From a virus, in the IMG/VR virus record IMGVR_UViG_3300036985_004988, positions 1-32,987 of that record: a stretch of 32,987 nucleotides of DNA. One strand, written 5' to 3'. The translations under genes and the position numbers were made by a program. Shown in pieces: positions 1,698 to 32,985 of the stretch. The notes under the pieces were generated by a model. That model made no database searches. It saw only the letters and a program-made list of their open reading frames with translations, and was not told the origin of the DNA. Position 1 is the stretch's first letter. The number at the start of each line of letters is the position of its first letter.

Positions 1698-2059
1698 GAT
1701 GGATCTATAGCCTCTAGATACGGAACTCGTTTTCCTATGCTGGACAATATTCCTGTAGTGTCCAGCAACTTCACTTGCTGACCATAGGACGAGAAATCCA
1801 AACCCATAGCGGTCTGTCCTTCGTAGCTGACAGATGCACCACCTACACTTTTACTCGATGCACGTTTCTCTCGTATACAGACAAAGTGGGCAGTAAGCCA
1901 TTTCTCTATCTCTTTCAAAGTAGCATCGTCCAGAGTAGAACTACCCAACTTGTTAGTAACAAGAAGATTTGCTGGAGTGATAAATACTGTCACTTCATCA
2001 GCAGCCAGTGTAGTCTTTATGATCTGCTTAACTTCCACTCCTGTAACTCTGTTAGCCAT
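1694..2059 (-). CDS. Head-tail adaptor (connector) protein
   Basis: A 121-residue frame, ATG at 2059, with AGGAGAG upstream. It reads as the connector family: 'GVEVKQIIKTTLAADEVTVFITPANLLVTNKLG' (helical bundle), 'LDDATLKEIEKWLTAHFVCIREKR', and the C-terminal signature 'S-V-S-Y-E-G-Q-T-A-M-G-L-D-F-S-S-Y-G-Q-Q' followed by 'KLLDTTGILSSIGK'. Such proteins form a ring under the portal and bridge to the stopper. The start lies 8 bases inside the end of the upstream sulfotransferase-like gene, so the genes are coupled. Confidence 0.8.
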   Translation of the reverse strand: MANRVTGVEVKQIIKTTLAADEVTVFITPANLLVTNKLGSSTLDDATLKEIEKWLTAHFVCIREKRASSKSVGGASVSYEGQTAMGLDFSSYGQQVKLLDTTGILSSIGKRVPYLEAIDPS

Positions 2060-2726
2060 GGGAATCTCTCCTGTTCTGACTCCATAAAGCTGGTTCTACA
2101 AACGGAAGCACTTCTTTTTCATTCCAAGACAACCCTGCCCACTCAACTGCTTCCTTTATCTCACTGAAGTCTCCAGCAACATACTTACTTGGCCAAACTT
2201 CTTTGATAAGAAGACCAGCTTTTTTCATTTCCTCAAATCGTTGTTTGTGAACATCAATCCACTTCTGCCAACCAGGAGCATCACTGAACGCACGCATGAA
2301 CGTTGTCTTTAGGCAGGAGTTTATAATGTCCTCATCAGTCCTTCTAACAATGATCCACTTTGCATTTGGAAATGCCCAGATAATCGCAGTCCATATCAAA
2401 CAGAACTTCGCTTGCTTGACATACCAAGCACCAGAGGAATACCCTTCACTAATCATCAAGGACTCTACTTGCTCCTTAAGATTATCGATAGAGACCAAGT
2501 TGTCTATATCAGGCAGAGGCCACTGACCAAGAGCATCCATACCAATAGATCGCAAGTATGGCTTTACGATACCCTCTCTAACCTGAACATTTTCAAACAT
2601 CCCTCTTTTATTGTGTCTGTTAGGTCCAGACACTTCTCCACCAAAAGCACCGCATAGCTGAAAGATCCCAGCCGTCATGGATGTCCCTGAACGTGCACAT
2701 CCAGTAATAAGAATAGGAGGGATCAT
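2052..2726 (-). CDS. Sulfotransferase-like P-loop protein
   Basis: A 224-residue frame with ATG at 2726 overlapping the previous stop by ATGA. The N-terminus 'ILITGCARSGTSMTAGIFQLCGA' is the 5'-phosphosulfate-binding loop of sulfotransferase-family proteins (G-x-x-R-S-G-T-S), and 'NAKWIIVRRTDEDIINSCLKTTF' resembles the 3'-phosphate-binding segment (IVRRp.d...S). PAPS-dependent sulfotransferases move a sulfate to sugars, proteins or lipids. In this phage the substrate is unknown; the gene sits in the head-tail connector cassette and is coupled to an MptE-like gene upstream. The catalytic base cannot be assigned by eye. Confidence 0.7.
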   Translation of the reverse strand: MIPPILITGCARSGTSMTAGIFQLCGAFGGEVSGPNRHNKRGMFENVQVREGIVKPYLRSIGMDALGQWPLPDIDNLVSIDNLKEQVESLMISEGYSSGAWYVKQAKFCLIWTAIIWAFPNAKWIIVRRTDEDIINSCLKTTFMRAFSDAPGWQKWIDVHKQRFEEMKKAGLLIKEVWPSKYVAGDFSEIKEAVEWAGLSWNEKEVLPFVEPALWSQNRRDSHG

Positions 2727-3343
2727 ATTGGCTTCTCCAGAATGGTCTCTAAGCGAACCTTACGAAACAGGTTCAGAGCTGAATCCATATTTGCGTTGAT
2801 GACTTCTACTTCCGGATAATCTCTCCAGAGGCTATCAGCTAGGTTAGCTATGTTTTCCATAAATACCTGGTAACGCATAGCTTTAGGACGATCCTTCTCA
2901 TTGATATGCCAGTTAGATTGACCACTGTTACCTAACTTCATATCAAATCCCAAGAGAACAATCTTCTTAGCTCCGAGATTAACTGCTAGATTAATGGCTG
3001 AAGCACCAGTGTTACAGAACCAACCTACCTTCGGAAACTTTTCCAAAGTCTTACCATTGACTCTCTCTAGCATGTGCACGGAGGGATCCTCAATGTACTT
3101 CAATGAACAAGACACGAGGATCCCTTCGTACAGTTTCAATCTCTCACGATGTATCATCCACCATGCATAATCGCCAAAGTAACATATTGGAACCAACTTC
3201 TCTCCCAATACGTAGGCATCATTACAGCCTATAACACACTTCCCTTTTAATGGTGTAAGATTTACACCACATAAACTGGGACCACCCCCAACTATGTAGA
3301 CAGTTTTACCTTTCCACCAATTGGGAGGGTTCCACCAGTTCAT
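2723..3343 (-). CDS. MptE-like / DUF115-type phage protein
   Basis: A 206-residue frame starting at ATG 3343, with GGAG about 10 bases upstream. It opens 'WWKGKTVYIVGGGPSLCGVNLTPLKGKCVIGCNDAYVLG', the nucleotide-binding 'GGGPSL' motif and following 'cNdA' of the MptE-like family, a Rossmann-type fold related to glycosyltransferases and pterin pyrophosphokinases. 'GWFCNTGASAINLAVNLGAKKIVLLGFDM' is the second typical block. Such genes are often found among phage head genes, sometimes annotated 'norphogenetic protein'; their role is not settled. It is coupled by ATGA to the sulfotransferase-like gene, suggesting the two act on one modification. Confidence 0.7.
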   Translation of the reverse strand: MNWWNPPNWWKGKTVYIVGGGPSLCGVNLTPLKGKCVIGCNDAYVLGEKLVPICYFGDYAWWMIHRERLKLYEGILVSCSLKYIEDPSVHMLERVNGKTLEKFPKVGWFCNTGASAINLAVNLGAKKIVLLGFDMKLGNSGQSNWHINEKDRPKAMRYQVFMENIANLADSLWRDYPEVEVINANMDSALNLFRKVRLETILEKPI

Positions 3344-5451: not shown

Positions 5452-8400
5452 TTACTTCTTGCTGAAGTCCATTACTGGCATTGCGTCTGCAACATTGTCG
5501 TCTGCATTCGCGTGCATACCAGTACCCTCACCGGAAGCCCGACCAACCATTGACTCGTCGACTTCCACTTCGGCCAATGCCGCAAGACCTTCAAGTTCAC
5601 CAACGGACTTCGCATTGAGCATCTCGTCCGAGAACTTGTTGCGCTTGCATGCCTTCAGACCCGCGATCAACGCTACCTTACGATCACGGTGCATCTTCAG
5701 ACCAGTACCCAAGATGTCCCTCATTTCACCAGGTGCACTGGCGATGAAGTCTTCGGCGGTCTTCGGTGCTGGCGGATTCTTCAAAGCAGCAAGCTGCTTC
5801 ATGTCTTCCGCTCTTGCCTGAGTCATCTGTTCAACCCGATCAAAGATCGAGTCTTCCATTACCTCAAGCTCCTCGCGATCTGACTCCACTACACCAGCAC
5901 TAAGCCCGATGAGTGAATCGATCCTCTGCTGTCTCTTCATACCTCTCCCTTTCTTTGTTTGTGACTTACCAAAGAACTTTTCCTTGGCAGGACCACTATC
6001 TTCCTCTTCCTCTTCCTCATCCTCGTCTATTTCCTCTTCCACCACATCTTCGTCGTCCATGTCCTCTTCGTCCATGTCCTCTTCGTCCATGGGCATCTTT
6101 TTCTTGTTCACCACTATTTCCACTTCCTCTTCGTCATCAGCAAGGGAAACAGTCTTGGAACCATCCTCCTCCTCATTTACAGTGTAAGACCTACGGAATG
6201 TTCCGTCAGGACTCTTATACACAAAGAATCCCTCCTCAGAGTTAATATGGAGAACTTCTTCCTCATCACCCATTATGGAAATGAGTGCATCACGTTCTTC
6301 CGTATTGATAGAGAGGTAATTGGTTACTGCCATTACTTCTTCCTCATCTCCATCAAGAGTAACATCGTCGTCCTTATCAATGGTGTATCCCTGCTGATAA
6401 GTTTTTCCATTGAGAGAGTAAACGAAAGTTTCGTCGTCGTTAATATCAACGACATGTCCGTATGGGACACTTACTCCAGCAGCTTCCTGGGTAGCAGTCC
6501 TCTTCGGAGAGATAAGATCCTGCAACCTTCTCCGCAACGTCTCAAACGAAAGGTTCACACTGAGACCCATCTTCTGCGCATTAAATACCTTCACTTCTGA
6601 CGCTCCTTCCTCTTCATGATGTTCCTCTGTATTATTCTTTACTCTTGATTGCAGTTTCTTAACTGTATTCTCAATCTTCCTTAAGCGAGTCTCTGCACGA
6701 GATGAACGTCCAAAGTCCCGAAGAAGTTCTTTCTGTGAACCAGTGGTATTCTTAGCTTGCCTCAAAGCACTTCTCTGCATCTTAGGAAGTGCTTGCCTGA
6801 ACATAGATGCCTTTGCTCCCGTATCAGAAATGAGTCTAGCTTCTGACGAAGTAAGAATAGTCTTGGTAGTATATGTTCCACGACCAAAAGAAGACGTAAC
6901 TTTATTCAAGTTACTTTCCATACGTTCGATATGGGAATCTACCCCATAGACAGCACGTTCTGCAGCAGCTGGTCCCGACTTGAATCTAGAATGCAATGCA
7001 TCTATCTTACGGTTCACATCTGCAGTATGTTGTGTTTTATGCACGTAGTCCAAAGAACCAGGAGTAAATAACTTACCACTACCCTTTCCCTTTTCATGAG
7101 GATTACCACTCCCTGGTCGCTTTGATCCTTCACTCTTTCCATCCCCATACTTCATCCGTTTTTCACCCTTAGCCATAGCACGATCATACTTCTTGTCGAA
7201 TGCTCTGTCCTTCTTACTCCTACTACCACCACCACTTGAACCACCACCAATCTGACCAGGACGACCAACATGACCAAAGGCACCGGAACCAGGACCACCG
7301 TGAGTTTTCAACATATCATCCAATCCAGCACGTTCCCATATTATATCTGCCTTACGAGCTAATTGCTCAGCCTTTCTAGCAGAAGGAGACATCTTTTCTG
7401 CTTTTCTACGAAGACGTTCCACTTCGCCACCCATCTTTTCAAACTTAGCCCACTCACTTTTACTCAACTTACCTTTCTTCCACAACTTATCATCCAATTT
7501 GAACTTCTCCTTTGCCAAAGCAGTTGCCTGATCTTTCAGCTCCTGAGCAGCTTCAGGGATACCTTCCTTATCAAGTTCTTTTACCTGATCATACAATGCG
7601 TTAGCTTCTGCCATAGCCTTTTTCTGTTTAGGAGTATAAATCCTCGAACTAGAAGATCTACCACCACCACTACTTGACCCACCTTGGTGACCTGGTATTC
7701 CTTCATGCCCAAAGTTGCCAGATCCACTTCCCCCAGCATCGTGCATCTGTTGGCTGTTCAACCTTGGCATTCCTGCCCCATCACTCCAACTACAGGCACC
7801 CTTCTGCTTAGGTAGCACTGCAAGATGGTCTGGACGGAAGTTGTGTGCAACAGCATTGTACTTTTCTTTCTGCCAGTTGCCAACGAGGAGATCGTCCTCA
7901 GTAAACACTCCAATGGAAACTTCCAGATGCTTACCAGCATTCAATGCAAGCATTACGTCCTTGTCTACTTCGTCTGCCTTGACAGGATCTATCCAGACTT
8001 CTCCCTTGAGCTTGCCACTGTCGAAGTTGCAGTTGAACGTTTTGCCTATTGTCTGTTTCTCCTGTAAGTGTGGCTGACTGGCAGTTACGGGAGCTCCGTC
8101 CTCAGTAGGATGATAAACAACTACCGGACGACCATTCCACGATTCAGGGAACTTACCCAGTTCTTCTGAGGAGTAGTACACATTGTTATGTACTCCTTCT
8201 GTCATGAAAATCGCAGGAGCTACAATATACTTCGTGCCTTCAAGCACTTCCCACCGGATCATGTCGCTCATGAGTGCGCGGAAGGAGCGAATAGCTGGCT
8301 GATCATCGTTCTTCTTCACTTTAGATTCAAGAGTCTTTGCAAATCTCTCCAAACTATCAGCCTTCTCTCTCATAACTTTGGCACTGGCCTTAATGAATCT

Positions 8401-9291
8401 GGGAACTGTTGATTTCCCGGTCTTTCCATACTGATCATAAGCATCTGCTGCTGCTCGATAGGCATCTGCTGCTGCTTGTGCTGCAAAAGGAGTCTTCTCT
8501 TTATACGCTCGTGCAGAAAGTTCAGCCGAAAGTCTTTCCGTAGAATGAGCTCTCTGTATAGAACCAATAGATCCTGTTACTTCTGGAATGTCTTCCCCTT
8601 CCTCAGGATTCTTATGGGAACCACGTTGAGGACCAAACTCTTGGACGTCGTCTCCCCCACGACCATGTTCATCTCCTTCCCCACCACCAATAAACTCGGA
8701 CCTACCACTATCATCATTACCACCACCACTGCCACCCACTTGTCCTTCCCTACCTTTGTGTCCGAAGTTGCCACTACCTGCTCCACCATGGGTAGATATA
8801 GAAGAATTATGCTTCTTACCCTTTCCACCAGTCTCCATCCAGTCTATTCGTTCCTTCAATCCCTTTTCTTTCTCTGGAGTCCAATTACTCACTGATTTGG
8901 GCTTTCCAGCAGCTTTTCTTGCCTTAGTAATCAATTTATCCAAAAGTTGGCCAGCCTTTCCTTCTGTCATATTAGGATTAGCTTTTCTAATCTTACCTAA
9001 AGCTCTCATCCAAGGAGCTATACTTTCATAAGGACCATCAACTTCCAAATCTGCATAGTTGATATTGGTTGGAATTGCAAGTTCTCCACCACCAGACTTT
9101 CCACCACCAGGACCACTACCACCAACATGTCCTGGGATCCCACTGTGTCCACGATTACCTGATCCCGGACCACCATTGTTCTTCAGATCTTCTTCTTCCG
9201 CGATGTGAAAACCAGGAGTCCGATCCTTCTTGGAAATGTCTTCCTTACTCATCACGTGAACGTTCATCTTCTTTTTCCCATGAATGCCCAT
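5452..9291 (-). CDS. Prohead protease (DUF2213-type) and scaffold in one multidomain protein
   Basis: 1279 residues; ATG at 9291 with AGGGAGACGGTC upstream. The recognisable protease core is about residues 345-511: 'YIVAPAIFMTEGVHN', 'SWNGRPVVVYHP', 'GKHLEVSIGVF', 'NFRPDHLAVLPKQKGACSWSDGAGM', as in DUF2213 prohead proteases. Two tandem copies of a small beta unit follow (near 'FVYSLNGKTYQQGYTI' and 'FFVYKSPDGTFRRSYTV'), then a very acidic stretch and a C-terminal scaffold-like part with 'RDRKVALIAGLKACKRNKFSDEML'. Unusually, the core is surrounded by extra segments bounded by four glycine-rich linkers (about residues 40-58, 169-188, 520-538, 665-683). Related proteases are usually several hundred residues shorter. 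The extra helical segments have no recognised function. Confidence 0.8.
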   Translation of the reverse strand: MGIHGKKKMNVHVMSKEDISKKDRTPGFHIAEEEDLKNNGGPGSGNRGHSGIPGHVGGSGPGGGKSGGGELAIPTNINYADLEVDGPYESIAPWMRALGKIRKANPNMTEGKAGQLLDKLITKARKAAGKPKSVSNWTPEKEKGLKERIDWMETGGKGKKHNSSISTHGGAGSGNFGHKGREGQVGGSGGGNDDSGRSEFIGGGEGDEHGRGGDDVQEFGPQRGSHKNPEEGEDIPEVTGSIGSIQRAHSTERLSAELSARAYKEKTPFAAQAAADAYRAAADAYDQYGKTGKSTVPRFIKASAKVMREKADSLERFAKTLESKVKKNDDQPAIRSFRALMSDMIRWEVLEGTKYIVAPAIFMTEGVHNNVYYSSEELGKFPESWNGRPVVVYHPTEDGAPVTASQPHLQEKQTIGKTFNCNFDSGKLKGEVWIDPVKADEVDKDVMLALNAGKHLEVSIGVFTEDDLLVGNWQKEKYNAVAHNFRPDHLAVLPKQKGACSWSDGAGMPRLNSQQMHDAGGSGSGNFGHEGIPGHQGGSSSGGGRSSSSRIYTPKQKKAMAEANALYDQVKELDKEGIPEAAQELKDQATALAKEKFKLDDKLWKKGKLSKSEWAKFEKMGGEVERLRRKAEKMSPSARKAEQLARKADIIWERAGLDDMLKTHGGPGSGAFGHVGRPGQIGGGSSGGGSRSKKDRAFDKKYDRAMAKGEKRMKYGDGKSEGSKRPGSGNPHEKGKGSGKLFTPGSLDYVHKTQHTADVNRKIDALHSRFKSGPAAAERAVYGVDSHIERMESNLNKVTSSFGRGTYTTKTILTSSEARLISDTGAKASMFRQALPKMQRSALRQAKNTTGSQKELLRDFGRSSRAETRLRKIENTVKKLQSRVKNNTEEHHEEEGASEVKVFNAQKMGLSVNLSFETLRRRLQDLISPKRTATQEAAGVSVPYGHVVDINDDETFVYSLNGKTYQQGYTIDKDDDVTLDGDEEEVMAVTNYLSINTEERDALISIMGDEEEVLHINSEEGFFVYKSPDGTFRRSYTVNEEEDGSKTVSLADDEEEVEIVVNKKKMPMDEEDMDEEDMDDEDVVEEEIDEDEEEEEEDSGPAKEKFFGKSQTKKGRGMKRQQRIDSLIGLSAGVVESDREELEVMEDSIFDRVEQMTQARAEDMKQLAALKNPPAPKTAEDFIASAPGEMRDILGTGLKMHRDRKVALIAGLKACKRNKFSDEMLNAKSVGELEGLAALAEVEVDESMVGRASGEGTGMHANADDNVADAMPVMDFSKK
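7243..7299 (-). repeat. Glycine-rich linker motif, protease copy 4
   Basis: Codes for GGPGSGAFGHVGRPGQIGG at residues 665-683 of the protease/scaffold protein. It ends a helical, Lys/Glu-rich segment and begins a Lys/Gly/Ser-rich stretch. Same motif as the other seven copies in this window. Confidence 0.9.
7678..7734 (-). repeat. Glycine-rich linker motif, protease copy 3
   Basis: Codes for GGSGSGNFGHEGIPGHQGG at residues 520-538, directly after the end of the DUF2213 protease core. It is nearly identical in protein to the first copy in the portal gene, including the following SSSGGG tail. Confidence 0.9.
8728..8787 (-). repeat. Glycine-rich linker motif, protease copy 2
   Basis: Codes for GGAGSGNFGHKGREGQVGG at residues 169-187, followed by a Ser/Gly/Asp-rich spacer. 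It separates the first inserted segment from a helical region that leads to the protease core. Confidence 0.9.
9118..9174 (-). repeat. Glycine-rich linker motif, protease copy 1
   Basis: Codes for GGPGSGNRGHSGIPGHVGG at residues 40-58, after a 39-residue N-terminal leader and before a helical segment of roughly 100 residues (74-168). The NR in place of F at position 7-8 also occurs in the second portal copy. Confidence 0.9.
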
Positions 9292-9883: not shown

Positions 9884-12133
9884 TCACTTAAACAAATGCA
9901 AATCCTTATCTGGAACTGTGGTATAAGGACCTTCTTGCCATTCTTTCCAATTCAAACTGTTCTTCTCTGCTATCCTCTTCCATGCCTTATCGTTAGTAGA
10001 GAAATGAACAGCCATCTTACCAGAAAGATTAAGAGTCTTGTCCTTAACAATGGCAGACAATCCCGCAGAGAAGATACCCTTCCTCTGCATAGAACGTGGG
10101 ATGTCACTATCATTGATACGAATAACATTTCCATCCGCATTAGGATAGAGACTTATACTCAAGCCAAGACCAGGACCATCTACAGTCACATTGACTTTAG
10201 TAAGCTTCTCATTCTTAAGCTGAGGATGACCTTCCTTCAGGTATTTGCCAGTACTACGAACTTCAAGTTTTATCTTTGGGTCTACCTTGTGTATGGCCTT
10301 TACCCAAGCTTCTGCAACCTTATCTAACTTGGGAGCTATTCTTCGTGCTTCCTCATCCATCTTTTCAGGAGACATCTCAAAAGCACCTACAAGAATTGGT
10401 TTTCCATTGAACGTACCAACGAAACCATCCTTTGCATACTTACCACCAAAAGAAGAAGTCAGATCAACGGACTTCCCTCCAGTAGAACGTCCACCACCAA
10501 CCTGCCCAGGACGTCCTTTGTGACCAAAGGCACCAGATCCCTTACCACCAAAGACAGACAGACGACTGAACAGTTTCAGCTTACTTCTCTTCTCACCTAC
10601 ATTCGCAGGAATCGCTACGCACCTGCAATTTGGATGTAGTGGTATCCGTCCCTCTATGTCGTCAATGGAAAAGACCTTTCCCTCTAGTGCCTGACACTTA
10701 GTGCATACCTTGTCGTCCCCAGCAGTACTCCACTCAGCTTCTACTTCTACTCCCTCTATTTGGGCTGCTCGATACATCCCCATAGAAGCCATATGATGGG
10801 CTCGAATGATCTCCGTGCGTGCGATAGTGCGTGCGCGAGAGCGTCCTATGTCTGTGTCTTCACTGAGAGACCTTGCCATTTCCAAAGGACTAAGTCCCTT
10901 AGCCATTCCCTCTGCAAGAGTGTGGGCAATTCTGTTAGACAAGAACTGCGTAATTCCTTTCAAGTCGTCGTACGTGCGCATGTGCAGGAGAGCAACCCTG
11001 TCCACATGAAAAGGCATATTGAAAGCACTGTCGATGAAACGAGGAGCAAAGTCTGGCTTAGGAAACTTAATACCCTTCTTGTTGAGCTCTGTCTCCCCTC
11101 TCTGCATACCCTTCTTGTAGGCAGAGTCAATGTATACGTCTGTCCATCCAGTGGCAGTCCCTTGTAGTTGGGGACCTTTGACAATCTTCAGAACCTTGTC
11201 GTCTACTTCATCGTTTAGCCAGCGAATAAAGCGACGGATACCTGTTGCAGAGTTGTCGTAAGCAAACTCATACTTGTTCAGAGGAATGCTTGCGTGAACC
11301 TGAAGACCATCTTCTCTCCAAGGAATCTTTTCCACAGACCAACGAGGATCTTGCTCACTAACTTCAGTGAGCTTCTTCATCTTTACGCCTTGGGCAATTG
11401 CAAACTGCCTACTCTCTGCCTTGGACAACTGCACTCCGTAGTAAGCTTTGAACAGTCCAGCACCCTGACCTTCAAGAATCTTCCCATCCTTAACTGCCCA
11501 ACTATGCTGTCCCCAAAATGGAGACTGAGAAGTACTAAGAGCATACCCAGTAACTATAGCGTCTGCCTTGCCAGATCTAAACTGCAGAGAAGCATTGGTA
11601 TGACATTCATTAGGTATACCCTTGTAGTTAACAATACCTTTCGTGCTAAACTTCTGTCCTCTCTTAGCTATCAAGTCCAGATCACTGTCACTGTCCAGTC
11701 TTTGGTCAATATAAGCAGGACGAATACTTCTCATTGCCTTCTTAACAGACTTACGATCTTCACGACTGGGCTTGGGACCCTCTCCTGTAAAACGTTCCTC
11801 AAGAGGGATACCCTTCTCACTTCCTTCTACACTTGATCCTCCTCCTACCTGTCCTGGCCTTCCCTTATGACCAAAGGCACCTGAACCAGGACCACCAAAT
11901 GTCTTCAACTCTTCTTTTCCAAGACCCATCACATCCAGATCTACAATCGCATGTCGTATCGCTGCCTTAACTAGAGCAAAGCGTCTGTCCAGATCTCTGG
12001 TGAATCCTGTACGTATCGCTCCCGTGCGGGAGGGATCGTAGCGCAAGACTCTCTTAGCAAGAAGATGCAGATGGGAACCATTTCCACAACTACACTCGTG
12101 CTGTTCTAGCAGTGCTGGAGAGGCGTAAGACAT
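9884..12133 (-). CDS. MuF-type head morphogenesis protein with extra domains
   Basis: 749 residues; ATG at 12133 touches the stop of the previous gene (TAAATG). The head part is split: residues 30-75 ('YDPSRTGAIRTGFTRDLDRRFALVK') are the MuF/SPP1 gp7 N-terminus, and about 290-510 hold the core, including 'ARTIARTEIIRAHHMASMGMYR', CxxC at 477/480 and HPNCRC at 500-505. Between them, after a glycine-rich linker (80-99), lies an inserted domain with Cys177 ('NECHTNASL') and His210 ('GQHSWAVKDG'), resembling Cys/His hydrolase folds. After a second linker (529-548) comes a C-terminal domain of about 200 residues of unknown function. MuF proteins ride in the capsid near the portal, and MuF fusions can carry effectors. 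Confidence 0.82.
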   Translation of the reverse strand: MSYASPALLEQHECSCGNGSHLHLLAKRVLRYDPSRTGAIRTGFTRDLDRRFALVKAAIRHAIVDLDVMGLGKEELKTFGGPGSGAFGHKGRPGQVGGGSSVEGSEKGIPLEERFTGEGPKPSREDRKSVKKAMRSIRPAYIDQRLDSDSDLDLIAKRGQKFSTKGIVNYKGIPNECHTNASLQFRSGKADAIVTGYALSTSQSPFWGQHSWAVKDGKILEGQGAGLFKAYYGVQLSKAESRQFAIAQGVKMKKLTEVSEQDPRWSVEKIPWREDGLQVHASIPLNKYEFAYDNSATGIRRFIRWLNDEVDDKVLKIVKGPQLQGTATGWTDVYIDSAYKKGMQRGETELNKKGIKFPKPDFAPRFIDSAFNMPFHVDRVALLHMRTYDDLKGITQFLSNRIAHTLAEGMAKGLSPLEMARSLSEDTDIGRSRARTIARTEIIRAHHMASMGMYRAAQIEGVEVEAEWSTAGDDKVCTKCQALEGKVFSIDDIEGRIPLHPNCRCVAIPANVGEKRSKLKLFSRLSVFGGKGSGAFGHKGRPGQVGGGRSTGGKSVDLTSSFGGKYAKDGFVGTFNGKPILVGAFEMSPEKMDEEARRIAPKLDKVAEAWVKAIHKVDPKIKLEVRSTGKYLKEGHPQLKNEKLTKVNVTVDGPGLGLSISLYPNADGNVIRINDSDIPRSMQRKGIFSAGLSAIVKDKTLNLSGKMAVHFSTNDKAWKRIAEKNSLNWKEWQEGPYTTVPDKDLHLFK
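10490..10549 (-). repeat. Glycine-rich linker motif, MuF copy 2
   Basis: Codes for GGKGSGAFGHKGRPGQVGGG at residues 529-548, at the exact boundary between the MuF core and the unknown C-terminal domain. It differs at only one residue from MuF copy 1. Confidence 0.92.
11837..11896 (-). repeat. Glycine-rich linker motif, MuF copy 1
   Basis: Codes for GGPGSGAFGHKGRPGQVGGG at residues 80-99, between the MuF N-terminal helices and the inserted Cys/His domain. Confidence 0.92.
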
Positions 12134-12355
12134 TTATACCTGCAACTTATGGGCAGCTTCTACTTCATTGCTCGATGCAAAATCCAATGGGTCAAAGCCA
12201 AGAATAGCAATGACATCAGGAGGAGTAACAGGGAGCAAAGCATCTTCTGTGTCCTCTTCGTTGAGCAGTGCTTGGTCTTGTCTCCAGTCTGGCCAAGACT
12301 GATTGTCCGGACCAAAGTGAACATCTACTGGTAGTCCTGTAATTGCTTTGATCAT
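12134..12355 (-). CDS. Small acidic protein between portal and MuF genes
   Basis: A 73-residue frame. The start is ATG at 12355 (MIKAITGLPVDVHFG), which overlaps the portal stop (ATGA) and has GGAGGAAGG upstream; the five extra residues of the longer frame are not needed. The protein is acidic, with 'SWPDWRQDQALLNEEDTEDALLPVTPPDVIAILGFDPLDFA' and no membrane segment. It ends exactly at the MuF start. A small gene in this position is common in head operons but I do not recognise the family. Confidence 0.75.
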   Translation of the reverse strand: MIKAITGLPVDVHFGPDNQSWPDWRQDQALLNEEDTEDALLPVTPPDVIAILGFDPLDFASSNEVEAAHKLQV

Positions 12356-15324
12356 TTTACCTTCCTCCAAGCCAAGAACACATGTGGATCAATGTAGCTC
12401 TGTAAAGCGACAGTCGGTGTATTTCCAAGGTGTTGGCTTACGACGGTCGCAACTGCCTTCACAGACTTCTTATAGGACGCTCTGTTCTTAGGAGGATCCA
12501 TACGGTTTATTGTATCTACGGCCAAAGATGTTCCTCTGGCAGTGCGCATGTCCTTTGGCTTAAAGCCACCACCATCCAGTCCTCTCGTGTATACACGCAA
12601 GGTCTTCTCTGTAACAGTTGGGAAGAGGAGTCCTTTCGGACCTGCTGCCTTGGCTCTTGCCAGAACATCTTTACCTACTGCTTTGTCTGTTATTGAAAAA
12701 GTCTTGATCTCTCCATGAGACTTCCCAGGAACGAAACGTAGAGCGACTGCACCAGGACGACCTATCACATGACGTCCTTGCAAAGTAGTAGCACCAAACG
12801 ATTCGTGTTCAGCCTTCATGTCTCTCTGGTTACCAGGACGAATAGCTGTCTCACTGATTAACCGAAGGCAAGAAGCGTTCTCTCTCTTGGTCTTGTCACC
12901 ACTCTTTATGTCTTTGGAAATCTCTGCCGTAACAGCATCTAGCTTTGTTCGGAGCTCTTCTGTTCTGCCGAACTTAGTAGCAGAATTCTTTGTTCGTGCA
13001 TTGATACTCAGTATTGGCTGACGACGACCTTTCTCATCTCTTCCAGTAACCATCAAGTCTGCCTTAGGATCCGTAGATACTTCCACGTCTGTCCACGCAG
13101 GAGGAATAGGTCTTCCTGTTGCCTTCATCACATACTTGGGTATTGGCCTTCCATTAGCCATAACCAACTCAGTGATTTCTTTCCCGTCCTTGTCCTTCTT
13201 GCCTGTAGGGACTCTCTTGGTTGCTCCCATAGGTGCCGAACCACCAACTTCTCCCTGACGTCCTGCGTGATCTCTGTTACCTGATCCAGCACCACCATTA
13301 ATATGCAATGCATTTACCAGGAGAACTTCGGAAGTAAGATCTCTAACACGTTTCGCTCCCTTAATCATGCGAAGCTGATCCTTGGGAACAATATGCTTCT
13401 TTCCTGTCCTGTCCGTCATCTCCCACGAAGTGCTGTTCTCATGTCCTCCAGTAAGGATACCACCAATCACTGTCTTGCCACTAATGGTAATTACAGCATC
13501 ACCAAAAGAGATCTTCTTACTCAATGGCAGAGAACCCTTCTCGAACGTCTTACGCAGATGGGAAGCAATAGGCTCTACCTTATCTCCCTTAAGAGGCATT
13601 CCCTCTGGCTTAATTTCCATTCCACTACCACCACCACTGCTTGATCCACCTTGGTGACCTGGGATACCTTCATGACCAAAGTTACCTGATCCCTCTCCTC
13701 CGGCTATCTTAAATGCTCTCTTAGGAGGATTAGTGGATGGAGAAGACCCTCTGGTCGGAGGAGTAGGTGGTCTACCCTTTCCACCACCAGTTGGCGTTGT
13801 GTCAGGCTGTCCCTGCCCAGAAGCATCTTCCCCATCCTGATCGTCTGCCTGTTGGGCAGCAGCAACTTGAGCATCTTCTTCTATCTGGGCTTGCTCTTCT
13901 TCCATCTTCTTCATTGCTTCGTCAATGATCTCTTGCGCTTCTTCCTCATCCATATCAAGGAAGCGAGTAAGGAAGAACATCGGAGGTATCAGGGCATCCA
14001 GACCACCACTGATATATGCAGCAATCATGTCAACCTTGGACTTCTTAATGTCCTGCTGTTCCTTCTCCGTAAGCATCTGAGCATCAGGCCAATCCACCAT
14101 GAACTTATTGTTCTTGGGTGTGGGTAGAATTCCAAGATCAATCAGTCTCTGGACAAAGGGACGAAGAATGATTGGTTCTGCAAAGTCTGTTCGCCGTTCT
14201 GCTACTCGATTGTTCCAGTTCTCCTGATCTGTAGTAGAAGCAAGTTCTCCTCTCTCTGAACCAGTAAGTATTCTCTGGGGAATGCCAGTAGCAGCACTGA
14301 TCATCTGAATCTGGACAGTCACGTTTGGTGTAGGATCTGCAACAGGAGAAGAAAGGTTTCTTGCCGTAACTCCCTGCAAGCGCATATAACGGTTGATACC
14401 ATGGATGTACTTCTTTATCTCAGTATCCATGGCAGTCTTACCAGCAGCATCTAGCTCCTGGGAGTCTGCATCCATTTCAAAGGAAAAGCCAGGATAGCCT
14501 CCTCTCCAGAACATCTCCGCACTACCAGCTATCAGCTTCTCCAGATCGTCCAAACGATTGTATACAGCTTCCAAACGAGGAATACCGTAGACGTCACTAA
14601 TAAGACAATCTTCCGCAACATGGATTACTCGGGAGTGGTGAACTACGTATGTCTGTGAGGGAGCAACTCCTACTGAAGTCCGAGCCTCTCCTATTGAAGA
14701 CTGCCCCATGTCGTAAGTTATCTGGTAAGTAAGAGGAAGTCCATATCGGGGAGACTTAACGTTCTGATCCCAAGTGAGTATTACTGCATGGTCTTCTGGG
14801 TATGGTTGCGAGAACAGCAATTTGCTGGCCTTGGTAGCTGGAATCTCCAGTTTAGATACTTGGGAGGACGAACCTGAACTTTTCTTGTTAGGAGCGTCAT
14901 CAACGCCAAGCAATAGTATCGAGTACCGTCCAAGGCCAGCAAGCTTGTCAGCACGATTAAGGTAAGAGAAGACGCGAACCTTTTCCAAGAGAGCCTTCCA
15001 TGCCTTCTCGAAAACAGATTCCTTTGCTTCCTCTGTGTCGTATACCTCTGGCTCCATTCGCCACGTGGCATCAGGATAAGCATTAACTATTCGCTTGGCA
15101 ATGTCTTGCCGTTGATACTTAGCCTCAAAGTGTTCGTATTGAAGAGTCTTCTGATATCCTACTACTTCGTAGATATCCCTATCCCCACCAAAAGTCTGTC
15201 CTAGGAAAGATCCCAACTTGGATCTGGACAGCAACTCGTTGGACATAGTAGACAATTTCTGGTTAGCTGCCCGCAAGGACATCAATGCTCCAGCGTTAGT
15301 TTCAGGAAATCTTGTGCGTCTCAC
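12352..15324 (-). CDS. Portal protein fused to a type IB topoisomerase domain
   Basis: 990 residues with a GTG start at 15324 and TAGGAG 7 bases upstream, over the terL stop. Residues about 45-470 are a DUF1073-type portal ('YQRQDIAKRIVNAYPDATWR', 'GLGRYSILLLGVDD', 'VVHHSRVIHV', 'ATGIPQRILTGSERGELAST'). After a Gln/Asp/Pro linker comes glycine-rich motif 1 (542-561), a domain of about 110 residues, motif 2 (677-696), and then about 290 residues matching type IB topoisomerases: 'SETAIRPGNQ' (Arg829), 'FVPGKSHGE' (Lys868), 'KDMRTARGTSLA' (Arg927), 'LGNTPTVALQSYIDP' (Asn967, Tyr977). The Asn in place of the classic His is normal in bacterial enzymes. The portal makes the DNA channel; the topoisomerase part could relax or nick packaged or incoming DNA. 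Confidence 0.85.
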   Translation of the reverse strand: MRRTRFPETNAGALMSLRAANQKLSTMSNELLSRSKLGSFLGQTFGGDRDIYEVVGYQKTLQYEHFEAKYQRQDIAKRIVNAYPDATWRMEPEVYDTEEAKESVFEKAWKALLEKVRVFSYLNRADKLAGLGRYSILLLGVDDAPNKKSSGSSSQVSKLEIPATKASKLLFSQPYPEDHAVILTWDQNVKSPRYGLPLTYQITYDMGQSSIGEARTSVGVAPSQTYVVHHSRVIHVAEDCLISDVYGIPRLEAVYNRLDDLEKLIAGSAEMFWRGGYPGFSFEMDADSQELDAAGKTAMDTEIKKYIHGINRYMRLQGVTARNLSSPVADPTPNVTVQIQMISAATGIPQRILTGSERGELASTTDQENWNNRVAERRTDFAEPIILRPFVQRLIDLGILPTPKNNKFMVDWPDAQMLTEKEQQDIKKSKVDMIAAYISGGLDALIPPMFFLTRFLDMDEEEAQEIIDEAMKKMEEEQAQIEEDAQVAAAQQADDQDGEDASGQGQPDTTPTGGGKGRPPTPPTRGSSPSTNPPKRAFKIAGGEGSGNFGHEGIPGHQGGSSSGGGSGMEIKPEGMPLKGDKVEPIASHLRKTFEKGSLPLSKKISFGDAVITISGKTVIGGILTGGHENSTSWEMTDRTGKKHIVPKDQLRMIKGAKRVRDLTSEVLLVNALHINGGAGSGNRDHAGRQGEVGGSAPMGATKRVPTGKKDKDGKEITELVMANGRPIPKYVMKATGRPIPPAWTDVEVSTDPKADLMVTGRDEKGRRQPILSINARTKNSATKFGRTEELRTKLDAVTAEISKDIKSGDKTKRENASCLRLISETAIRPGNQRDMKAEHESFGATTLQGRHVIGRPGAVALRFVPGKSHGEIKTFSITDKAVGKDVLARAKAAGPKGLLFPTVTEKTLRVYTRGLDGGGFKPKDMRTARGTSLAVDTINRMDPPKNRASYKKSVKAVATVVSQHLGNTPTVALQSYIDPHVFLAWRKVK
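13237..13296 (-). repeat. Glycine-rich linker motif, portal copy 2
   Basis: Codes for GGAGSGNRDHAGRQGEVGGS at residues 677-696, directly before the topoisomerase IB domain. It is the most divergent of the eight copies, with D for G before the His. Confidence 0.88.
13642..13701 (-). repeat. Glycine-rich linker motif, portal copy 1
   Basis: Codes for GGEGSGNFGHEGIPGHQGGS at residues 542-561, after the portal core and its Pro/Thr linker. A SSGGGSG tail follows, as in protease copy 3. Confidence 0.92.
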
Positions 15325-20215: not shown

Positions 20216-20262
20216 ATCAGTTCGTTGGTAAGTTCGGACATTAAGCAATAAGGAGCATGGAA

Positions 20263-20652
20263 ATGATAAATTGCATTGCTTGTGAAAATACAGGTTTAGC
20301 CAGTAATGGCTGTCCATGCGGAGTATGTGGTCACATAAACAGAAACAACAAGGAGAAAGTCATGTCGAAGAAGAACAGCAAGAACGAGAAGAATGAGAAG
20401 AAGTCAAAGGTCGAGAAGAGTGAGAAGGCAGCGGTCCGGACAAAGTTTGGGCATCTGCTTTCCACGATGAGTGGAATGATTGACAACCTGGTGCTGGCTG
20501 GAACTTCGCTGAAGGCAGCGGAAAAGGCCATCAAGAAGTTCAACAAGGACTGCGCGAATGCCGAGCGGAAGTTCAAGTTGCACGTTGCCCACCTGATCAA
20601 GGACAAGAACGTTAAGGTCGTGATCAAGGGTGATGTGTACAAAGCCAAGTAG
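20263..20652 (+). CDS. Zinc-knuckle leader joined to a phage early domain shared with the acidic protein
   Basis: 129 residues from ATG 20263, 7 bases after AAGGAG. The first 25 residues form a CxxC...CxCxxC zinc knuckle ('CIACENTGLASNGCPCGVCG'). A second in-frame ATG at 20362 also has AAGGAG 6 bases upstream and would give a 96-residue protein starting MSKKNSKNEK. The last 68 residues (FGHLLSTMSGMIDNLV...DVYKAK) match the C-terminal 71 residues of the very acidic protein encoded at 30599-31729, so they form a shared domain; the SD-ATG layout of that gene resembles the 20362 site. One frame may thus give two proteins. Confidence 0.75.
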   Translation: MINCIACENTGLASNGCPCGVCGHINRNNKEKVMSKKNSKNEKNEKKSKVEKSEKAAVRTKFGHLLSTMSGMIDNLVLAGTSLKAAEKAIKKFNKDCANAERKFKLHVAHLIKDKNVKVVIKGDVYKAK

Positions 20653-28924: not shown

Positions 28925-28951
28925 GAGTTCAATAGAATGGAAAGGAACGCC

Positions 28952-30526
28952 ATGGTTACCAAAAGAAAAGTGGATGTGAGCATTGAAAAAGAAATTCTGA
29001 TAGGAATGATAGTTAACAGCAAGTTCATAAAAGGACTATTACCAATATACAAGTCCGAATACTTCTCCGCTCCCTTTGCTCGAACTGTTGCAGATTGGTG
29101 TATTGGGTATGCAAAGAAATACGACAAGGCACCAAAGAAGTCCATACAAAGTCTTTTCCATGTTCATTCTGCCAAGGATGAGGATGAGGACAAGGTAGAA
29201 CTTATCCATGATTTTCTGTCTACACTGTCGGAGGAGTTTGTCAAAGCCAAGAAGATGAACGTTGCTTATCTACTTGACAGAGCGGAAGCTTACTTCAAGA
29301 AAAGAAGTTTGGAAATACTGTCCAAGAATTTGCTGGGTACTTTGGTGGAGGAAGGCTCTGAAGAAGCTGAGAAGTTAGTTAGGGAGTATAAGCAAGTTGC
29401 CCGACCCACTTCTTCGGGTATCAATCCATTTAATAATCCTGATGCACTTCGAGAAGCGTTTGAAGAAGAAGGTCAGCGACTGATTTCCTTTCCTGATGCT
29501 TTAGGAGAATTGCTGAATGATGAATTGGTCAGGGAAGGCTTCGTAGGAATGATGGCTGCTGAAAAGAAGGGGAAGACTTGGCTAGCTGTAGAGTGTGCTA
29601 CAAGAGCTATGCGTTCACGATGCAACGTTGCCTTCTTTGAAACAGGAGATATGAGTGAACGAAGGTTAGTCCGCCGATTCGCTATGCGTATCACAAGAAA
29701 ACCTACCATGCAGAAATACTGTGGTACGGTATATATTCCTGTTCTGGATTGTCAACACAATCAAGATGGCTCTTGCAAACATCCAAGACGTTCAGGCAAA
29801 GGATCAGTTCCTCCCATAGATGAAGAAGGGGATGAACCTATCACTCCGGAACTCCTGATGTCCGGTGCCTCCAAGAATTACTTGCCTTGCTGTCGTTGCA
29901 TGAAGAGGGACAAGAAAGTTTACAGAGGAGCAGTGTGGTACAAGAAAAAGCGAATAGATGAACCACTGACATGGAGGGAGAGTTTTCAGATTGGCAATAA
30001 GTTCATGAAACAAGCCAGAGGAAAAGATTTCAAACTTATTATCAAGCCTACAAATACATATAGTGTCAACGACATCAGGAATCAGCTAGATACTTGGGAA
30101 CAGTCCGAAGGATTTATTCCTGACGTGATTATCATTGACTATGCGGATATCTTAGGACCGATGGACAAGAAAAAGGATTACCGTCAGCAACAGAATGAGA
30201 CTTGGTCTGCAATGCGTGCTTTAAGTTTGGAAAAGCATGCACTGGTTCTGACGTTCACTCAAGCAAACCAAAAGTCTTATAAGGCAAGAAGTCTTCAGTT
30301 GGGTCATGTGGGTGAAGACAAAAGGAAATACGCTCATGTAACGTTGATGGGTTCTATTAACCAAGTACCAAAAGAAAAGCGATTAGGTATATGGAGATTT
30401 GGAGTGCTGGTTATGAGAGAGGATTTCTTTACTGTAGATTCTGAAGTTTGTGTTCTTCAGAATTTAAGTATAGGATCTCCGTATCTGGGTTCTTATTGGT
30501 CTTACCAAAGAAAGGAGGAATCTTAA
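28952..30526 (+). CDS. DnaB-like replicative helicase
   Basis: 524 residues from ATG 28952, behind GAAAGGAACGCC; five more residues to 28937 lack a good site. The N-terminal part is helical. The RecA-like core has 'GMMAAEKKGKTWLAVE' (Walker A, Lys208), 'NVAFFETGDMSERRLVRRFA' (the DnaB H1a region) and 'PDVIIIDYADIL' (Walker B). A stretch rich in Cys lies in the middle (Cys267, 275, 313, 314, 316), which suggests a zinc-binding insertion between Walker A and B, absent from bacterial DnaB. It unwinds the fork 5'-3' and would be loaded by the organiser. Confidence 0.82.
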   Translation: MVTKRKVDVSIEKEILIGMIVNSKFIKGLLPIYKSEYFSAPFARTVADWCIGYAKKYDKAPKKSIQSLFHVHSAKDEDEDKVELIHDFLSTLSEEFVKAKKMNVAYLLDRAEAYFKKRSLEILSKNLLGTLVEEGSEEAEKLVREYKQVARPTSSGINPFNNPDALREAFEEEGQRLISFPDALGELLNDELVREGFVGMMAAEKKGKTWLAVECATRAMRSRCNVAFFETGDMSERRLVRRFAMRITRKPTMQKYCGTVYIPVLDCQHNQDGSCKHPRRSGKGSVPPIDEEGDEPITPELLMSGASKNYLPCCRCMKRDKKVYRGAVWYKKKRIDEPLTWRESFQIGNKFMKQARGKDFKLIIKPTNTYSVNDIRNQLDTWEQSEGFIPDVIIIDYADILGPMDKKKDYRQQQNETWSAMRALSLEKHALVLTFTQANQKSYKARSLQLGHVGEDKRKYAHVTLMGSINQVPKEKRLGIWRFGVLVMREDFFTVDSEVCVLQNLSIGSPYLGSYWSYQRKEES

Positions 30527-30598
30527 ATCGGGCGAATACCGTAGAACATATTGTTGGGTTTAGTGTAGGTAAAACAAAGTAACAAGGAGGAAGTGGTC

Positions 30599-31729
30599 AT
30601 GGGAAGTAAGAAGTCAAAGGTTGAAGTGGATGAGAAGGATCTGAAAGCTGCTGCGAAGGATATCAATGCGGTATTAGGTCCCGATCCCAAGATCGATCTG
30701 AAGCAGGGAGCCAAGGGTTTGGAAAAAGAAATCCGAACCATGGCTGAAGAGATCAAGTCGGACGATAAGTTGTCGAAGGAGACTTTCAAACTCCTGAAGG
30801 ATCTCGGATGCGCTCCTGAGGAAGATACGGGTACGGATGATGAGGATGAAGACGAAGAGGATGAGGATGAAGTAGAGGAAAAGAAGTCTTCCAAGCAAAA
30901 GAAGTCCAAGGATGAGGATGAGGACGAAGATGCTGATGAGGAAGACGAAGACGAAGAGGAAGAGGAAGAAGATGAGGATGAGGACGAGGAGAAGTCTTCC
31001 AAGAAGAAAAAGTCCAAAGATGAGGACGATGAAGAGGATGAGGAAGAGGAAGATGTAGACGAGGACGATGAGGATGAGGATGAGGAAGAAGAGAAGCCTT
31101 CCAAGAAGTCCAAGAAGTCCAAGTCTGATGATGAGGATGAGGAAGAGGACTCGGATGAGGATTCCGAAGAGGAAGACGAGGACGAAGAGGAAGATGCAGA
31201 TGAGGACGAGGATGAGGAAGAGGACGAGAAACCTTCAAAGAAATCCAAGAAGTCCAAAGATGCAGATGAGGACGAAGAGGAAGAGGAAGAAGAGGACGAA
31301 GAGGAATCAGACGAAGATGAGGACGAGGACGAAGAGGATGATAAAAAGTCCAAGAAGTCCAAGAAGTCTGATGAGGAAGACGAGGACGAAGAGGAAGAGG
31401 AAGAAGAGGACGAAGAGGACAAGGGTGAGGACAACAAAAAGGAGGGTAAAGTGAAGAAGGGAAAGAAAGAGAAGAAAGAGAAGAAGGAAAAGGGTGGTAA
31501 GGAGAAGTCCTGCTTTGGTCATAGGGCAAGCGGGATGGGTGGAATGATCGATGGTCTTGTCAAGGAAGGAACTACCCTGAAGAGTGCTGTTAAGGCATTG
31601 GGCAAAGCATTCAAGGGTAAGTCTGCGGAAACCCTGGCAAGCAAATTCGAGAAGCATGTCAAGCATCTCGAAGCTGACTGTGATGTGAAGGTCAAGATCT
31701 CTGACTCGGGAGTCTACAAGGCCAAGTAA
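30599..31729 (+). CDS. Very acidic protein with lysine islands and a shared C-terminal domain
   Basis: 376 residues from ATG 30599, behind AAGGAGG at 8 bases; a GTG at 30593 is too close to that site. Three parts: an N-terminal helical domain (1-75); about 200 residues that alternate between Asp/Glu runs and short islands such as KPSKKSKKSK; and a C-terminal domain (306-376) that matches the C-terminal domain of the protein at 20263-20652. The middle looks like a disordered charge-patterned region that could mimic DNA, bind basic proteins or phase-separate. It is the last gene before the tmRNA. No family is known to me. Confidence 0.8.
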   Translation: MGSKKSKVEVDEKDLKAAAKDINAVLGPDPKIDLKQGAKGLEKEIRTMAEEIKSDDKLSKETFKLLKDLGCAPEEDTGTDDEDEDEEDEDEVEEKKSSKQKKSKDEDEDEDADEEDEDEEEEEEDEDEDEEKSSKKKKSKDEDDEEDEEEEDVDEDDEDEDEEEEKPSKKSKKSKSDDEDEEEDSDEDSEEEDEDEEEDADEDEDEEEDEKPSKKSKKSKDADEDEEEEEEEDEEESDEDEDEDEEDDKKSKKSKKSDEEDEDEEEEEEEDEEDKGEDNKKEGKVKKGKKEKKEKKEKGGKEKSCFGHRASGMGGMIDGLVKEGTTLKSAVKALGKAFKGKSAETLASKFEKHVKHLEADCDVKVKISDSGVYKAK

Positions 31730-31758
31730 ACAGCCAAGACCCGAAGTCAGGTTTCACT

Positions 31759-31850
31759 GGAATGGTTGACTCACCAGTAAAGGCAATCAGAAACGGTTAG
31801 AGTGTTTTTCACTCGTGGTGAATTACCGTAGATTGCTACCATTCCTTTTT
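31759..31850 (+). terminator. Branched terminator-like structure before tmRNA
   Basis: GGAATGGT (31759-31766) pairs with ACCATTCC (31838-31845) and closes a fold with an inner stem GCAATC/GATTGC (31783-31788 with 31831-31836), then ACGGT/ACCGT (31793-31797 with 31825-31829) and GAGTG/CACTC with a TTTTT loop (31800-31814). TTTTT then CATTTTC follows. It would end transcription of the acidic gene or mark a processing site just before the tmRNA. Confidence 0.55.
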
Positions 31851-31861
31851 CATTTTCAATT

Positions 31862-32216
31862 GGGGATGTCGGGTATCGACTGGTTAGTAGTAATTATATT
31901 GGCATGCGGTGGTTGATCGGTGGCCACCTTAAACTCCGATCAAAAGCGAACTGACGAAGTCCGCGAACTCTTGGCTGCTTAATTGCACCAATAGGAACCC
32001 GGAGAGGTATGGTTAGTATCCGGTAGTACGACTCTTACCAACTAGATCCCGGTAGTCGCTCCGGTTATAGTGCGACTTGCATAGTGGTTGCAAACTAAAC
32101 ATCCACTTGGTGGAGGGTACACTTAGTACCCCTAGTTGCTGGACTTAAACCAGACAAGCATGTAGAAGATATAATGGCTCTTTCACAGGACGGGAGTTCA
32201 ACTCTCCCCATCTCCA
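31862..32216 (+). ncRNA. ssrA: Transfer-messenger RNA (tmRNA)
   Basis: 355 bases (E. coli: 363). The 5' GGGGATG pairs with 3' CATCTCC as the acceptor stem (31862-31868 with 32209-32215). The T arm is GGGAG-TTCAACT-CTCCC (32192-32208). The 5' domain has GGTATCGAC and GGCATGCGG as expected, PK1 uses GATCGG/CCGATC (31915-31920 with 31936-31941), and the 3' part holds AAGCATGTAG and GGACGGGAGTTCAACTC. The tag frame runs in the phase ...GAC GAA GTC CGC GAA CTC TTG GCT GCT TAA (31953-31982), ending in ELLAA, with resume codon near 31950-31953. CCA is not encoded (ACA follows the acceptor). tmRNA frees stalled ribosomes and tags the unfinished protein for proteolysis; no smpB was seen. Confidence 0.9.
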
Positions 32217-32244
32217 CATTATCATAAACCAAAAAGGAGTACGT

Positions 32245-32985
32245 ATGAAAGAACAGAACATAGACAAGTGCAAGATTGATAGCCTTTCGTTAGCCACACT
32301 TCTTGGAAGAGTGGTTCTCAAAGGCAGGATAGAAGAATGCGTTGTGATTTCCAAGGACGGTCGTGCATCAGTTCAGGCTATTGACTTGACGAACTCTGTG
32401 TTCGTATCGTGTTCCAGAAAGATTGAAGGTCTTCCTGACATGAAGATTGGTATGAGCAAACTGTCCATCGTCACCAAGTGTCTCTCATTAGGTGGAGATG
32501 TGTTGATATCCATTAAGGACAACAAGCTTACTCTGAAGAGAGAAGGTCTTGGGCTAATTAAGCTTTTACTGCTGGATCCTGCTCAGATAGCCACATCAGT
32601 CAAGGAAGAAGATGCTGAGAAGAAAATCTGTGCAACTCAGAAGGTTGAGTTCTCCATAGACAATTCAGTTGTGGAGAAGTTTCAGACCTACAATGGTTTG
32701 GTCTCTTCGGACAGCACCATAGTGTCAGTCAAGAACGGTCAGGTCACATTCCACAGTAGGAAGACTTCAGAAGCCCAGTTTTCCATTGTCGTTGCTACTA
32801 TCAAGGATGAAGCAGCGGAAATGAGTACTGAAGTTTATACTGCTTACCTGATGGAAGTTCTCAGTGTTCTTGAATTTCCAAAAGGAAAGTCTTGCACGAT
32901 TGGTTTGTCAGACAAGGGTCCTATCCTCATCAAGCAAGCTCATCAAGGAACAAGTCTTTGGGCATTGACACCTATAGCGGAGTAA
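32245..32985 (+). CDS. DNA sliding clamp (PCNA/gp45/beta-like)
   Basis: 246 residues, ATG at 32245 behind AAAAAGGAGTACGT; it ends two bases before the edge of the window. The sequence reads as a sliding clamp: repeating beta-alpha-beta units ('VVLKGRIEECVVISKDGRASVQAIDL', 'MGMSKLSIVTKC', 'DVLISIKDNKLTLKREG'), and a C-terminal 'KGPILIKQ...LWALTPIAE' like the last strand of clamps. At this length it is close to T4 gp45/PCNA (two domains per subunit, trimer), not to the three-domain bacterial beta. It would hold the polymerase on DNA. Confidence 0.72.
   Translation: MKEQNIDKCKIDSLSLATLLGRVVLKGRIEECVVISKDGRASVQAIDLTNSVFVSCSRKIEGLPDMKIGMSKLSIVTKCLSLGGDVLISIKDNKLTLKREGLGLIKLLLLDPAQIATSVKEEDAEKKICATQKVEFSIDNSVVEKFQTYNGLVSSDSTIVSVKNGQVTFHSRKTSEAQFSIVVATIKDEAAEMSTEVYTAYLMEVLSVLEFPKGKSCTIGLSDKGPILIKQAHQGTSLWALTPIAE

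Follow-up and report, generated by a model that had tools for sequence, protein, structure and literature searches.

Does a phage genome that carries a tmRNA-like gene encode a complete and usable tmRNA and, if so, at which codon would a rescued ribosome resume, and from which host might the gene have come? The window analysed here is a whole IMG/VR virus record, a linear stretch of 32,987 bases that was treated as a possible fragment. Its genes are those of a phage, including terminase, capsid, portal, Mu-F-like, DnaB-like helicase, primase-like and SNF2-type helicase genes. A first-pass annotation had proposed that a phage-encoded tmRNA lies near its end, and had suggested a covariance search. 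A whole-window cmscan against 4227 Rfam families bears the proposal out: RF00023 is the sole family over its cut-off and matches bases 31862-32219 on the plus strand with 88.1 bits (cut-off 47, E 4e-33), the whole of the model, positions 1-374, being covered. The gene lies inside the phage genome, flanked by ORFs that run in the direction of the DnaB-like helicase. The tmRNA of this phage is real and apparently intact.

Its parts are listed in Table 1. The acceptor stem comprises seven pairs, the third of which is G3-U70 (31864/32213), the pair read by AlaRS, and the T-loop, TTCAACT, is identical to that of E. coli K-12 ssrA. CCA is not encoded at the 3' end, where CAT is found instead. Helix 5 is formed by 31971-31978 with 31985-31991, giving seven pairs with one bulge. 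Over most of PK2-PK4 the posterior probabilities of the covariance model (CM) alignment are low, about 0.1-0.4, and the minimum free energy of the whole tmRNA has a z of -1.94. ARAGORN calls the same gene only as 32001-32217, with the tag APVIVRLA; this call begins within the true gene, and both its 5' end and its tag are wrong.

Table 1. Coordinates of the tmRNA gene, its parts and its surroundings in the window
Feature	Position	Strand	Remarks
DnaB-like helicase	28937-30526		upstream of tmRNA
Acidic low-complexity ORF	30593-31729	+	between helicase and tmRNA
Interrupted stem, then TTTTT	31759-31850	+	just 5' of tmRNA; -31.7 kcal/mol, z -1.68
One-piece tmRNA gene, 5' end to discriminator base	31862-32216	+	RF00023
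Acceptor stem 5' strand GGGGATG	31862-31868	+	pairs with CATCTCC 32209-32215
Helix 2, 5' side: ATTATATT + GCATGC	31893-31907	+	pairs with 32168-32175 and 32158-32163; CM alignment
Pseudoknot PK1	31908-31943	+	two interlocked helices, 5 and 8 bp
PK1 stem 1, GGTGG/CCACC	31908-31912/31924-31928	+	
PK1 stem 2 (8 bp), TTGATCGG/CCGATCAA	31913-31920/31936-31943	+	
GAACU, five bases 5' of resume codon	31948-31952	+	A at -4, equivalent of E. coli A86
Predicted tag frame GAC GAA GTC CGC GAA CTC TTG GCT GCT	31953-31979	+	DEVRELLAA
Stop codon TAA	31980-31982	+	within helix 5 loop; sequence
PK2-like element	31999-32023	+	first stem CCGGA/TCCGG; second stem weak
PK3-like element	32054-32077	+	first stem AGTCGC/GCGACT; second stem weak
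Two hairpins at PK4 place	32102-32131	+	TCCAC/GTGGA and GGGTAC/GTACCC
Helix 2, 3' side, with conserved GCATGTAG	32158-32175	+	helix list, CM alignment
T arm GGGAG-TTCAACT-CTCCC	32192-32208	+	perfect 5-bp stem; sequence
Acceptor 3' strand CATCTCC + discriminator A	32209-32216	+	sequence
Downstream ORF, 246 residues	32245-32985		no family

The first-pass annotation had also placed the gene in a replication operon. The DnaB-like helicase upstream fits this description, but neither of the two ORFs that flank the tmRNA matched a PHROG or Pfam family. For the downstream ORF, a sliding clamp was considered and dropped; three of its five PDB hits are ASFV E301R/sliding clamp entries, but the hits are weak (best E 0.18) and the single-sequence fold has a pLDDT of 32. 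No promoter-like plus-strand site precedes the tmRNA in 30400-31862, in agreement with the annotation, the whole stretch holding three such sites against 2.9 expected. The branched terminator-like fold said to stand just before the gene is instead an interrupted, mostly unbranched stem, as stable as which were 8 of 200 shuffles, and it is absent from the plus-strand list of the terminator scan. This stem is a possible terminator, or possibly a leader removed in processing.

Other features of the record are noted in passing. The acidic ORF before the tmRNA and a second plus-strand ORF, 20257-20652, have similar C-terminal domains (GMIDxLVxxGTxLKxAxKAxxKF...VYKAK), which in one of the two sits behind a long acidic low-complexity stretch. 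A minus-strand ORF of 990 residues (12352-15324) carries a portal domain (PF06381) and, towards its C-terminus (residues 776-973), the catalytic core of a topoisomerase IB (PF01028, E 1.2e-18). In this and two adjoining head genes (5452-9291 and 9884-12133, likewise on the minus strand), a Gly-rich motif resembling GGxGSGxFGHxGRPGQVGG is found several times over. Among the head-tail genes, a sulfotransferase-like ORF (2052-3343, minus strand; PF13469, below cut-off) lies beside an MptE-like ORF (PF01973, below cut-off).

Where would translation resume? The resume codon had been described as not evident: TTG GCT GCT TAA closes an open frame whose last residues are ELLAA, and the conspicuous GCG AAC before it is one base out of phase with that frame. 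Both of these observations hold, but the rule of an A four bases upstream solves the puzzle. In E. coli it is A86, in that position, that sets the resume codon, and its change is crippling, as described in the mutational work cited here from PMC2481249. For comparison, a set of 130 tmRNAs was assembled. Its Chlamydiota members were drawn from 93 that were not a random sample: about 30 were taken for their top Rfam scores, 3 from the pattern hits, and the others were picked by hand, mostly with lengths near 358. Of the 93, 82 were kept, after 7 that ARAGORN did not call and 4 whose tag position was implausible had been set aside. To these were added 30 of 33 Bacteroidota, 13 of 14 from one further phylum, 3 other outgroups and 2 viral tmRNAs. 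An A at -4 together with a G-first resume codon is found in all 130, as placed by ARAGORN, a count that is not wholly independent because the program may itself favour such positions.

From 5 to 16 nt after PK1 of the phage tmRNA, in any frame, GAC at 31953-31955 is the only codon that combines a first-base G with A at -4, and the covariance model independently aligns its own resume codon onto the same bases. This GAC lies 9 nt past the 8-bp PK1 stem and 11 nt past its inner six pairs; the distance is 12 nt in E. coli (according to PMC2481249) and about 9-13 nt from the PK1 arm in the comparators read. The base at -5 is G, as in one comparator (L067) and in one of the three other outgroups, and in E. 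coli the U85G change is reported in the same paper to be tolerated without adverse effect. GCG AAC was rejected as the resume site, as it stands 2 nt after PK1 and out of phase with the tag. We conclude that the resume codon, as predicted from these bases, is GAC 31953-31955. The predicted DEVRELLAA frame then runs unbroken to its stop, so that the interrupted tag named beforehand as a sign against the gene is not seen.

Nor does the tag look as unusual as had been supposed, since it starts and ends like several Chlamydiota tags. Aspartate comes first in 15 of 82 Chlamydiota tags, 5 of 30 Bacteroidota and 3 of 13 from the further phylum, while ELLAA ends occur in 5 of 82 Chlamydiota and in none of the 30 Bacteroidota, 13 of the further phylum, 3 outgroups or 2 viral tmRNAs. 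The comparison of tags that had been suggested finds both features together in four of the 82 Chlamydiota (DNHNGSQELLAA in L101, DNSQELLAA in L119, DNSEELLAA in L163 and DTDHSELLAA in L165) and in none of the 46 comparators from non-Chlamydiota genomes. A length of nine is common among the comparators; in the large database described in the consulted portion of PMC11915505 the commonest length is 10. The exact tag DEVRELLAA was not found in the literature searched. On its predicted residues, DEVRELLAA is a tag of ordinary style, seen in some bacteria. The first-pass annotation had raised replacement of the host tmRNA during takeover, or a phage-specific degradation tag, as possible roles. The LAA end of such tags is read by host proteases and, because the phage tag keeps it, nothing points to an altered fate of the tagged proteins.

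What, then, would the phage do with this RNA? Very probably it is an ordinary, working, one-piece tmRNA that uses the SmpB of the host. It would be made during infection and then trimmed and given its CCA by host enzymes, and host AlaRS would charge it with alanine via G3-U70. Together with host SmpB, the charged molecule would reach ribosomes that had stalled on mRNAs left cut or incomplete. The ribosome would add alanine, switch to GAC four bases past the conserved A, translate DEVRELLAA and terminate at the helix 5 TAA. Host proteases would then receive the tagged protein and the ribosome would be freed, and the phage would benefit in that ribosomes stay usable. As the annotation had remarked, no smpB is in view, Pfam scans of the 38 window ORFs finding no SmpB family, an absence that says little because the record is a 33-kb linear piece.

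It is very unlikely that the gene is instead a degenerate, non-working passenger copy of a host ssrA, left for example by imprecise excision. Its score is low relative to those of bacterial genes (Chlamydiota matches reach 96.9-172 bits), its pseudoknots have diverged, and GCG AAC is out of register with the frame by one base, all of which such a copy might display. Every essential part is nevertheless unbroken, and there is exactly one consistent resume codon. The GCG, moreover, follows PK1 far more closely than the resume codon does in E. coli or the comparators (2 nt as against 12 and about 9-13), so there is no sign of an in-frame ANDE tag broken by an insertion.

Very unlikely, too, is a decoy, an RNA that would bind host SmpB or stalled ribosomes and so block trans-translation by the host. 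There is a precedent in the RNA of mycobacteriophage DS6A, which resembles the tRNA-like domain only, and such a molecule inhibits tmRNA (as set out in parts of PMC4131195 and PMC11915505); in the window tmRNA, likewise, the tRNA-like domain is well kept and PK2-PK4 have diverged. A decoy would need no reading frame, yet the frame, the resume determinants, the stop hairpin and PK1 have all been kept. Experiments described in PMC2481249 and PMC4236655 found tmRNA pseudoknots to be replaceable or swappable with little or no loss of activity.

An alternative tag, whether begun at an earlier codon (TDEVRELLAA, RTDEVRELLAA) or at the GCG (A-N-stop), is most improbable, for although the frame is open back through PK1, CGA at 31947 likewise has an A at -4 and GCN AAC is a common tag start (as in ANDENYALAA among the comparisons), ACT has G at -4, CGA and GCG stand only 2-3 nt past PK1, neither CGA nor ACT is G-first, and the 130 comparators agree without exception on both features of the rule.

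A working phage tmRNA of this kind has known counterparts. One study counts tmRNA in 402 of 18,146 phages and suggests that it serves to maintain the translation machinery or to recycle host proteins (PMC9004378, in the sections drawn on here). Among the phage tmRNAs listed in PMC4131195, together with the inhibitor-like form of DS6A, those of the mycobacteriophages Bxz1, Cali, Catera and others and of Bacillus phage G are, as far as that account goes, likewise complete one-piece tmRNAs in tailed-phage genomes; the window tmRNA differs from them in its tag and phage family, and the blastn search described below found no phage DNA similar to it. For methylophage Melnitz, full function of the phage ssrA was proposed and its origin argued from ssrA similarity, but its gene, as described in the relevant part of PMC9004378, is permuted, in two pieces and placed behind a glutamine riboswitch, whereas the present gene is in one piece, with no other Rfam family over cut-off anywhere in the window. 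The DS6A RNA, on the description in PMC4131195, has no tag frame; the frame here is complete.

Relatives among viruses are few. A blastn search with the phage tmRNA against 50,697 phage records gave no match at E 1e-5; the tag and PK1 patterns found no stretch in viral contigs, among which searches also found no relative of the DnaB-like helicase or of ORF 32245-32985. The 5'-end pattern found 16 viral stretches, only one of which has a tmRNA over cut-off, with an unrelated tag (L011, 157-547 on the minus strand, 93.6 bits, tag ANNNNNFFIAQVAMAA, adjoining a tRNA-Tyr). In conserved segments the phage tmRNA is 0.50-0.51 identical to the two viral tmRNAs of the comparison set. A Chlamydiota tmRNA used as query found nothing in plasmids, and in phages a single short match that was tRNA-like. 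Another viral contig (L006, 2582-2646, minus strand) carries a type II hammerhead ribozyme, which scores 42.3 bits against a cut-off of 37.

The capsid offers a wider family. Its closest annotated relatives are capsids of Brevundimonas phages (37%), and a search with a capsid alignment gave 253 relatives in viral contigs, of which 80 were kept (best 70%). The tmRNA gene is rare in this family, since RF00023 exceeds its cut-off in only 1 of the 50 other capsid-family records searched whole (L254, tag ADSYYQLKAA), and ARAGORN found no tmRNA in the retrieved stretches of the 80 loci. Three further records of the 50 have RF00023 matches below cut-off. One capsid relative (L255, 1270-1704) has a clear tmRNA 3' end, from GCATGTAG to CCA, with the matching acceptor 5' strand before an ORF of about 94 codons; this element may be a split gene, a relic or an attachment site. 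In another (L256, 1501-1593, minus strand) nothing more than a T arm and the 3' end of an acceptor stem, of tRNA/tmRNA type, is present, possibly as an attachment site. Both were considered as decoy tmRNAs and rejected; what they keep is chiefly the T arm together with the 3' strand of the acceptor.

Which host does the tmRNA point to? After a length filter, 79 Chlamydiota entered a comparison of conserved segments (5' domain plus 3' end), made on an alignment dominated by Chlamydiota rows and with few phyla sampled. The identity of the phage tmRNA to Chlamydiota (mean 0.605, maximum 0.669) is the nearest found, against 0.516 for 30 Bacteroidota, 0.468 for 13 of the further phylum, 0.524 for the three outgroups and 0.525 for E. 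coli, an excess that is modest because unrelated groups are 0.50-0.55 identical to Chlamydiota and Chlamydiota 0.787 among themselves. Shine-Dalgarno-like motifs precede 28 of 39 likely gene starts, compared with 17% of random stretches; Bacteroidota rarely use such motifs, so this speaks against a host in that phylum.

The ends of the molecule tell otherwise. All 35 Chlamydiota tmRNAs with flanks have the acceptor GGGGGTG/CACCTCC and none has the GGGGATG/CATCTCC of the phage, although GGGGATG occurs in two fetched without flanks (L100, L128); the TTCAACT T-loop is likewise absent from the 35. Among 31 Bacteroidota the GGGGATG acceptor is found in 15 and the T-loop in 2, so the acceptor stem and T-loop fit Bacteroidota better than Chlamydiota. 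In a FastTree tree the phage tmRNA pairs with a single Chlamydiota sequence (support 0.26); a sequence of the further phylum joins this pair (0.67), and the enclosing clade of 82 includes all 79 Chlamydiota (0.81). The tree was not accepted as proof, being a quick one with the phage resume codon placed one base off. The terminase was rejected as a host marker because it is not specific: of 232 Chlamydiota genomes 4 have a match, and of 148 Bacteroidota genomes 7, one of which gives the best (41%). Capsid homologues were found in none of 232 Chlamydiota and none of 230 Bacteroidota genomes, an empty result that, without a positive control, shows little.

The nearest conserved-segment identity, the D...ELLAA tags of a few Chlamydiota chromosomes and the Shine-Dalgarno-like motifs would be compatible with an environmental Chlamydiota host, or a close sister lineage, from whose ssrA the tmRNA would be descended. 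Set against the acceptor stem, the T-loop, the capsid result and the phyla outside the sample, this origin is tentative and rather doubtful. The literature searched held nothing on point for tailed phages of Chlamydiae, though we do not claim that they are absent from print.

We conclude that this is a new, divergent member of an already known class of phage tmRNAs. The unrelated tag of the other capsid-family tmRNA suggests separate gains within the family. As ARAGORN misplaces the 5' end of the gene and gives it a false tag, phage tmRNAs as divergent as this one may be annotated wrongly. Should the Chlamydiota origin prove true, the record would represent a tailed dsDNA phage of an intracellular bacterial phylum, and would matter far more.
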